The notes under the pieces: generated by a model | What the model saw: the letters and a program-made list of their open reading frames with translations, nothing else | What the model was told of the DNA's origin: nothing | Databases searched by the model: none | Made by a program: the position numbers and the translations under genes | Origin: Gemmatimonadota bacterium | GTDB taxonomy: Bacteria; Gemmatimonadota; Gemmatimonadetes; Longimicrobiales; Gaopeijiaceae | Assembly (NCBI GenBank): GCA_022823145.1 | Contig: JAJDXS010000058.1 | Span: forward strand, 1 to 64,000 | Direction of reading: 5' to 3' | DNA: 64,000 nucleotides | Shown here: piece after piece, positions 5,951-56,490 of the stretch | How positions within the stretch are numbered: position 1 is the stretch's first letter | How the letters are laid out: each line of letters starts with the position of its first letter

Positions 5951-7038
5951 GGGCGCCCTCCCCGCCGGGTGCGCTCCGCCTCCGCCTCCAGGCGCGCGAT
6001 CAGCGCCTCCCCGTCGGGCAGCCGCTGGGCCAGTTCGTCCCGGATGCGCGGTCTCACGGCCGGACGGAACGGGGCCAGCTCCGGGCGGGAGATATCGACC
6101 CCGTTGGCGCGCATCTGCCCCAGGGCGTCCGCCTCCATGCGGCGCGCGACTTCGCTCTGGTAGGCGAGCGCGTCGGCGGCGGAGCGGTCGACCGTCTCCC
6201 GGATGTCGCGGGGAAGCGCCCGGTAGAACGGCTCGTTCACCAGGAGGGTGATCGGATTGTAGGTGATCGACGTGAAGCTGTAGAACTTCGCCACCTCGTG
6301 GAGCCGGCTGCTCACGAATCCGACCGCGTTCGCCTCGCCGCCGTCGATCACGCCCTGCTGCAGCGCCGAGTAGACCTCGCCGTAGTTCATCGGGGTCGCC
6401 TGGACGCCGAGCGCGGAATAGGCCGCCAGGTACGTCGGGTTCTGCAGGACCCGGAGCTTGAGTCCCGCGAGGTCCCCGGGTGCCTCGACCGGTCGGCGCC
6501 TGTTGTAGACGTGGCGGAACCCGTAGTCGAGGAAGCCGAGCGAGCGGACTCCGGTGCGCTCAAGAAGGAGGCCGCGCCACCAGTCCCCCATGCGGCCGTT
6601 CATCACCGTGAGCCCGTGGTCCCGGGTCTCGAAGAGAAATGGGAGATCGAAGATCTGCGTCTCGGGCACCCAGCCGGAAAGCACGGGCGTACCCGTGATG
6701 GCCATGTGCACCGCGCCGACCTGGATCAGTTCGAAGGCCACGCGCTCGCCGCCGAGTTGCCCCGACGGATAGATGACGACGCGGAATCGCCCGTCGGTGC
6801 GCTCGAGCATGAGGTCGCGGAAGCGCTCCGCCATGAGGTGGAATTCCGAGCCGGTCGACAGCACATGGGAGAAGCGGACCTCCCAGGTGGGCAGACCGGA
6901 ATCGGCGGATTCAGGGGCGCGGCAAGACGCCGCCAGAAGCGCCGCAACGATTGTCAGGCCGAATCCGCACCGGACCCGGACGACCCGGGCGACCCGCGTG
7001 GTCACGAGCTGTGGCGTTTCTCTATGTACTGTAAACAC
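5947..7038 (-). CDS. dctP: TRAP transporter solute-binding protein (DctP)
   Basis: A 363-residue extracytoplasmic solute receptor. It has a lipoprotein signal ending AALLAASC near residue 39, then the DctP domain: EVRFSHVLSTGSEFHLMAERF early, the substrate-anchoring region KLRVLQNPTYLAAYSALG near 195 and VYSALQQGVIDGGEAN near 225, all typical. It probably captures an organic acid anion. The ATG at 7038 lies inside the 42-bp repeat element at 7024-7065. A GTG at 7005 would give a better-shaped lipoprotein signal (MTTRVARVVRVRCG), so the true start may be there. The SDR gene lies just upstream. Confidence 0.92.
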   Translation of the reverse strand: MFTVHRETPQLVTTRVARVVRVRCGFGLTIVAALLAASCRAPESADSGLPTWEVRFSHVLSTGSEFHLMAERFRDLMLERTDGRFRVVIYPSGQLGGERVAFELIQVGAVHMAITGTPVLSGWVPETQIFDLPFLFETRDHGLTVMNGRMGDWWRGLLLERTGVRSLGFLDYGFRHVYNRRRPVEAPGDLAGLKLRVLQNPTYLAAYSALGVQATPMNYGEVYSALQQGVIDGGEANAVGFVSSRLHEVAKFYSFTSITYNPITLLVNEPFYRALPRDIRETVDRSAADALAYQSEVARRMEADALGQMRANGVDISRPELAPFRPAVRPRIRDELAQRLPDGEALIARLEAEAERTRRGGRP

Positions 7039-7065
7039 GACATAATGTAATGTCGACCTTACATA
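7024..7065 (-). promoter_or_regulatory. 42-bp element: two tandem 21-bp dyads, copy 1
   Basis: On the minus strand two 21-bp units follow each other (7065-7045, then 7044-7024). Each has ATGT at positions 2-5 and a terminal ACATTACAT or ACAGTACAT. It lies between the SDR stop and the dctP coding region and overlaps the upstream candidate dctP start. The same element occurs at 25039, 38758, 46811 and 56449. Confidence 0.6.
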
Positions 7066-25038: not shown

Positions 25039-25080
25039 AATGTCAACTATCCTTTACATCTTGACAACCGTGGTTTACAG
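25039..25080. promoter_or_regulatory. 42-bp element: two tandem 21-bp dyads, copy 2
   Basis: Units 25039-25059 and 25060-25080. Each has TG at positions 3-4 and ends TTTACAT or TTTACAG. The first ten bases, AATGTCAACT, are identical to the start of the copy at 56449. It lies 24 bp upstream of the M28 pseudogene start. Confidence 0.6.
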
Positions 25081-38757: not shown

Positions 38758-38799
38758 ATTGTCTACTTTGGTTTACATTCTGGCAACCGCAGGTGACAT
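38758..38799. promoter_or_regulatory. 42-bp element: two tandem 21-bp dyads, copy 3
   Basis: Units 38758-38778 (starts ATTGTCTACT, ends TTTACAT) and 38779-38799 (starts TCTGGCAACC, ends GTGACAT). It is the most diverged of the five copies but keeps TG at positions 3-4 and ACA at 18-20 in both units. It lies between a minus-strand propeller gene and a plus-strand small operon. Confidence 0.5.
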
Positions 38800-46810: not shown

Positions 46811-46852
46811 AATGTAAAATACACATTACATATTGTCATCTACACATTACAT
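46811..46852. promoter_or_regulatory. 42-bp element: two tandem 21-bp dyads, copy 4
   Basis: Units 46811-46831 and 46832-46852, both ending ACACATTACAT and starting AATGTAAAAT or ATTGTCATCT. It is one of the two best-preserved copies. It lies 66 bp upstream of the minus-strand choice-of-anchor-B gene and beyond the end of the methyltransferase pseudogene. Confidence 0.65.
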
Positions 46853-56448: not shown

Positions 56449-56490
56449 AATGTCAACTGCACATTACATAATGTAAACCGCACATTACAT
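56449..56490. promoter_or_regulatory. 42-bp element: two tandem 21-bp dyads, copy 5
   Basis: Units 56449-56469 and 56470-56490 are nearly identical: they start AATGTCAACT and AATGTAAACC and both end GCACATTACAT. This copy lies between the 3' ends of two convergent genes, so it has no obvious gene to control. Confidence 0.65.

Follow-up and report, generated by a model that had tools for sequence, protein, structure and literature searches.

A 42-bp tandem-dyad element gathered at gene ends in one genus of Gemmatimonadota is a predicted operator of an XRE regulator heading a modABC operon

A 64,000-nucleotide stretch of DNA from a Gemmatimonadota bacterium of the family Gaopeijiaceae (assembly GCA_022823145.1, contig JAJDXS010000058.1, positions 1 to 64,000; hereafter the window) carries five intergenic copies of a 42-bp element, one of them at 46811..46852. 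Which protein reads this element, and what could so many copies of it be doing? The element consists of two tandem 21-bp dyads with the unit consensus TGTMATGTnnACATKACA, with AA before the pair and TT after it. Judged from sequence comparison, it is very probably the operator of an XRE-family regulator with a PBP_like domain, whose gene stands first in a modABC operon. In what follows, G labels denote genomes in our sample, G000 being the source genome of the window, and L labels denote sequence loci.

All five copies lie where the original prediction, made from the window alone, had placed them, and the tandem pattern has 12 matches in the window against 0.57 expected from shuffled sequence. 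The units had been described as rough inverted repeats of the form TGTnA...TnACA; the dyad stands, but the consensus is a full palindrome rather than a rough one. A symmetric position weight matrix (PWM) was fitted to 58 copies from G000, contained in ~670 kb taken mostly around matches, and each of these copies scored well over the cut-off of 14 (range 25.6-59.4). The inner half-sites are more conserved than the outer ones. Joint PWM matches have their main peak at a unit spacing of 21, in agreement with the tandem spacing first reported, and a second peak at 26 because the inner half-sites are palindromic. Two dimers on the same face of the DNA, as initially proposed, would fit both the 21-bp period and the operators of phage CI-type repressors.

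The frequency of the element in G000 is far above chance. Using the palindromic pattern at ≤2 mismatches, we obtained 121 matches compared with 0 in the control, and at ≤3 mismatches the two strands gave 160 + 165 matches compared with 9 + 19 for the reversed control, for a total of about 120-160 copies in the genome (controls 0-19). Simulations indicate that binding sites can also arise by drift (PMC6397444); given 121 matches against 0, the copies can hardly have originated in that way. We then applied the palindromic pattern at ≤2 mismatches to a sample of 148 genomes of the same class. Within the window's genus, 22 of the 23 genomes, including G000, carry 30-270 copies (controls 0 or 1), and the remaining member, G009, carries none at this threshold. 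Genomes of the other genera have 0-2 copies. Public contigs with the element belong to Gemmatimonadota metagenome-assembled genomes, including the complete chromosome OX639991.1 (Longimicrobiales), with the addition of a single Zixiibacteriota match; the latter is isolated, in a genome with 8 matches against 4 in the control, and was discarded as a sign of wider distribution. Many of the element-bearing bins are presumably sponge-derived, if their names are taken at face value. De novo scans for drifted tandem dyads in two other genera (G051 and G042) gave nothing clearly above background.

When the HTH_3 proteins of the genus were surveyed, several proved to be encoded next to elements. The candidate regulator is a 384-aa XRE protein with the Pfam domains HTH_3 and, at its C-terminus, PBP_like (a ligand domain resembling periplasmic binding proteins), encoded in the source genome at G000:C23:63972-65123, outside the window; the chromosome OX639991.1 encodes an orthologue. 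An element is found directly upstream of its gene in 5/5 of the genomes looked at first and then in 20/20 genus genomes with a readable upstream region, where the PWM scores are 35-54; the chance of an element at this place is about 0.7% per genome. A protein search of 148 relatives recovered the regulator in 22/22 element-bearing genus genomes, although the match in G011 is partial (residues 8-243) and that in G005 has one stop and is split over contigs, with a second match of 65 residues at a contig end. The same search did not find it in G009. Presence and absence of regulator and elements match in 23/23 genus genomes, and together with the element at the regulator's own promoter this strongly supports the identity of the pair. 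The suggestion that the element is the operator of a global regulator of the lineage is upheld to this extent, and not as regards placement before genes (see below).

The regulator gene heads an operon containing modA (147.9, curated cut-off 62.5) and modB (209.5, curated cut-off 182.6), along with an ATPase gene whose best match is modC at a score under the modC cut-off. Beyond this genus, the regulator gene is likewise a neighbour of modA in many genera of the family. Pfam detected neither a ModE nor a TOBE domain in the protein, and a literature search found no description of an XRE-PBP_like regulator of modABC. Elements also occur 105-203 bp upstream of genes for small HTH_3 proteins at L257:5087-5413 (G021) and at L262:5658-6002 and L040:5721-6008 (both G000); these could be further targets or coincidence.

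The genome lacking both regulator and elements was analyzed through its syntenic locus. In G009 this locus reads DAO-GPP34-modA-modB-modC-OMP; the regulator and its operator are missing, and the genes leave no space in which the regulator could fit. In a tree built from GPP34, ModA and ModB, G009 falls within the genus, together with the G000 clade; the branch that separates them from the outgroups and from the second genus clade has a support of 0.989. Since G009 groups with the G000 clade, its absence of elements would most simply be a loss. We considered and rejected a drifted motif in G009, as a de novo tandem-dyad scan gave only one vestige-like site in 180 kb, for which no orthologous intact site was matched among the sequences compared.

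Other genera, too, have tandem dyads with the same arms ahead of their orthologue of the regulator gene. They are clear in G033 (spacing 22), fair in G066 (22) and G047 (21), and weaker in G062, G036, G068 and G077, and these genomes contain 0-1 further copies. Because the other genera have the dyads upstream of the regulator and almost nowhere else, an ancestral operator appears to have proliferated in the window's genus. It may instead have proliferated independently in the two genus clades. Against this, a site at the place orthologous to the window's 46811 copy occurs in G002, G015, G001, G010 and G006, and thus in both clades (G010 and G006 in one, G001 in the other). Two observations concern genera outside the window's own. 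In G066 (genus g12), which is nearly free of other elements, a single strong element at L061:1501-1539 overlies the stop codon of a gene for a 496-aa protein. In G052, a 1.0 Mb bin of genus g31 in the same family (60% complete), there are 5 element-like matches at ≤3 mismatches (control 0), and the regulator was not found in this bin.

The motif itself differs between groups of genomes. In G000, G006, G010 and G008 it is mainly TGTMATG and the recognition helix of the regulator reads QAIHAIE[TNS]G[SA]Q, while in G001, G021, G017 and G013 it is mainly TGTMAAC and the helix reads QAILA[IV]EAGRN. This pairing is suggestive of a motif flavour that tracks the recognition helix.

To place the copies relative to genes, we used gene calls from a simple codon-model caller on loci mostly chosen for holding a site, so that densities are biased and class proportions should be less so. 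Only 9/206 copies are inside genes, compared with 86% of random positions. Of 175 classified copies, 52 (30%) lie between convergent genes, compared with 18% of random non-coding positions (p=1.5e-4), and 22 (13%) lie between divergent genes, compared with 29% (p=6e-7). The copies also lie close to gene ends: for 73% the nearer boundary is a gene end and not a start (random 42%), and for 68% a gene 3' end is no more than 60 bp away (random 41%). Moreover, at 24 of ~205 adjacent gene 3' ends the stop codon is exactly the TAA of the outer TGTAA arm. The sites shun divergent promoters and gather 0-60 bp past stop codons, and placement before genes is not the rule. The idea of an unusual promoter class seated just before genes is not supported by these figures for most copies.

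The five window copies are placed as follows. The copy at 7024..7065, on the minus strand (score 46.0), is 7 bp past the stop of an SDR gene and 17 bp ahead of dctP. The copy at 25039..25080 on the plus strand (37.8) is 26 bp past the stop of an AAA ATPase gene and 24 bp ahead of a 110-aa open reading frame; the M28 peptidase gene to which it had been assigned is downstream at 344 bp, after this reading frame. The plus-strand copy at 38758..38799 (25.6) is the weakest and most degenerate of the 58 and is flanked by divergent genes, one for a beta-propeller protein 88 bp away and a small one 331 bp away. At 46811..46852, also on the plus strand (57.0), the element is 49 bp past the stop of a methyltransferase-domain gene and 66 bp ahead of a gene whose product matches FG-GAP repeats, a correction to the original prediction. 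Finally, the copy at 56449..56490 on the plus strand (51.6) lies between convergent genes with their stops 58 and 36 bp away. Four copies had been said to lie just before genes, and they are in fact 17, 24, 88 and 66 bp from starts; three of these four, and the fifth copy too, are nevertheless 7-58 bp from a stop codon.

Comparisons of close relatives indicate how copies persist and change. A copy was kept at the orthologous place in 29/29 close-pair comparisons (93-99.9% flank identity), and retention drops as divergence grows. Over 30 close pairs, the core TGT.A/T.ACA shows 2.1% change and the dyad interiors 21.5%, with some central positions at 30-43%; the pairs share genomes, so that p-values overstate this evidence. 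For reference, change amounts to 11.4% at four-fold sites, 2.1% at codon positions 1+2 and 6.4% in aligned intergenic DNA. Several adjacent bases of the dyad centres often change together with the arms fixed, for example in L058:11752 compared with L175 and L177. An apparent inversion of units between species was dropped, as the loci concerned did not pair as orthologues.

The way in which copies are gained and lost resembles the insertion or deletion of short segments. In G000, two convergent stops are separated by ~55 bp that include an element, and in G012 these stops directly adjoin. G018 has kept just the initial part of an element found whole in G021 and G007. Additionally, some copies occupy the central part of a repeat of ~250 bp that is bounded by terminal inverted repeats and resembles a miniature inverted-repeat transposable element (MITE). 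This repeat, with the 42-bp element at its centre, is dispersed in the genus (L045:10498-10744, L106:3450-3695, L109:1818-2063, L127:494-739 and L120:2719-2964), has the ends AGCAGTCCGTGGATAAA...TTTTGTCCACGGGCT, and occurs in a deleted version in L218. Among the 58 copies of G000, MITE-type flanks were seen only at L045 and partly at L020. In G021, three identical elements (C1:207279, 207528 and 207777) follow one another at intervals of 249 bp, as if a unit the size of the MITE had been repeated in tandem.

Taken together, we favour the reading of the element as a double operator, occupied by two dimers of a single Cro/CI-type (XRE) regulator that bears a PBP_like domain. The 384-aa protein would bind it, probably sensing molybdate or a related oxyanion, and would repress its own modABC operon, as expected because the operator is in promoter position. 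Within the genus, the operator would have multiplied as short segments were inserted, for some copies as part of a MITE, and the copies would be preserved by selection linked to the regulator. At gene ends, the bound protein could separate adjacent transcription units as a roadblock or insulator that responds to the regulator's ligand. This is the weakest step: it is the likeliest role for the gene-end copies, ahead of titration of the regulator or mere passenger status, and yet one that we propose only tentatively. The full history, in which a metal-operon repressor became a strictly regulator-dependent, genome-wide marker of gene ends in one genus through a multiplied double operator, partly carried in a MITE, and a ligand-responsive roadblock or insulator, is likewise possible and is put forward with similar reserve; on this view the dependence is such that the lineage without the regulator shed nearly every copy.

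Several findings count against this account. The association of regulator and elements is weak as a formal test (Fisher p=0.04), as the sample holds only one genus member that lacks the regulator. Sister genera possess the regulator while their sites have not proliferated, indicating that the regulator is not sufficient. The association of helix and motif covers only two or three clades, which are not phylogenetically independent. About a quarter of the copies are closer to a gene start than to a gene end, and some of these may be ordinary operators. The genes flanking the copies have diverse functions with no common theme and, among the families listed, no molybdenum theme. Gene ends with an element have terminator-like hairpins no less often (15%) than those without (11-14%); replacement of intrinsic terminators, which we had considered as a role, found no support in these equal frequencies. 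Lastly, dyad centres outpace four-fold sites in change, which simple operator drift does not explain.

The alternative that survives best is that the element is a mobile repeat, or one resembling repetitive extragenic palindromic (REP) sequences, whose gene-end bias reflects tolerated insertion; the link to the regulator would then be confined to its own-promoter copy and all others would be passengers. Intergenic placement, avoidance of promoters, the 30-270 copies within one genus, the MITE that carries the element mid-repeat at many loci and the ~55-bp insertion in G000 would all suit such a repeat. It accounts poorly for a core that changes by 2% while the centres vary, for the retention of every copy in the close-pair comparisons, and for the joint absence of copies and regulator in G009, and recognisable MITE flanks occur on a minority of copies only. 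A search for the Y1_Tnp domain of REP-associated tyrosine transposases (RAYTs) gave 0/23 genus genomes with matches, compared with matches in 5 control genomes, and a REP/RAYT origin was rejected. We regard the passenger reading as a whole as being on the unlikely side.

Two further alternatives appear improbable. If the copies were classical promoter operators of a large regulon, each governing its downstream gene, one would expect the copy at the regulator's own promoter, the four window copies 17-88 bp before starts and the existence of some codirectional and divergent sites. The depletion of divergent and enrichment of convergent regions disfavours this for most copies, as do the stop codons lying exactly within the outer arm and the adjacent genes without a common theme. 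No more plausible is a decoy reservoir, in which regulator molecules are titrated by the many copies, so fixing the threshold of the modABC operon. A single regulator gene facing 30-270 sites among unrelated neighbouring genes would agree with it, but titration alone explains neither the preference for gene ends nor the conservation of single copies at orthologous places. An RNA-level element, with tandem hairpins in the 3' untranslated region serving as terminators or stabilisers of mRNA, might be suspected from palindromic units that could fold just past stop codons; it was rejected as highly improbable, since the arms lack compensatory covariation (unit 1, 327 pairs against 328 expected; unit 2, 342 against 336), as expected for a duplex DNA site, are AT-rich with conserved base identity, have no Rfam match in the window and recur in the same arrangement at the regulator's promoter.

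The preferred reading, a multiplied operator of the XRE-PBP_like protein, ties a specified protein to a specified DNA element, from sequence alone, in bacteria that have not been cultured. It would provide a natural experiment on a regulator that gained hundreds of sites, with an ancestral one-operon operator, proliferation in one genus and a relative devoid of both regulator and sites. What transcription-factor sites do at gene ends, a matter seldom open to study in bacteria, becomes a testable question as well.

Compared with known systems, the element shares with REP sequences and bacterial interspersed mosaic elements served by RAYTs its palindromic, extragenic and gene-end-biased nature and its tens to hundreds of copies, and differs in lacking Y1_Tnp across the 23 genomes and in its conserved core and variable centre. 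Correia-type MITEs carry an IHF site, and such a site can regulate a neighbouring operon (PMC10969869). A MITE spreading a protein-binding site is thus common to both, whereas most copies here are free of MITE flanks and the factor would be a one-operon regulator instead of a nucleoid protein. Similar to the ModE molybdate regulon, the regulator adjoins modABC, and its loss is accompanied by at most vestiges of sites; Geobacter metallireducens lost ModE and retains only vestiges of its sites (PMC2700814). In contrast to the ModE/MopI architecture, the protein described here combines an XRE helix-turn-helix with PBP_like, is not a ModE member by domains, and is paired with tandem 21-bp dyads at 30-270 sites, mostly at gene ends. 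The element would also work like the operators of Cro/CI-type phage repressors, which are tandem TGTAA...TTACA dyads with a 21-bp spacing beside genes for HTH repressors, as in L149. Dyads of this kind at 21 bp were seen in the phage contigs L135, L143, L147, L149, L152 and L174; the one viral locus looked at, L149, is a phage repressor operator, and was not taken as evidence of a wider distribution of the element. Where the phage operators serve a divergent pair of lytic and lysogenic promoters, the present sites have no such pair and are chromosomal, with one regulator gene for all 30-270 of them.
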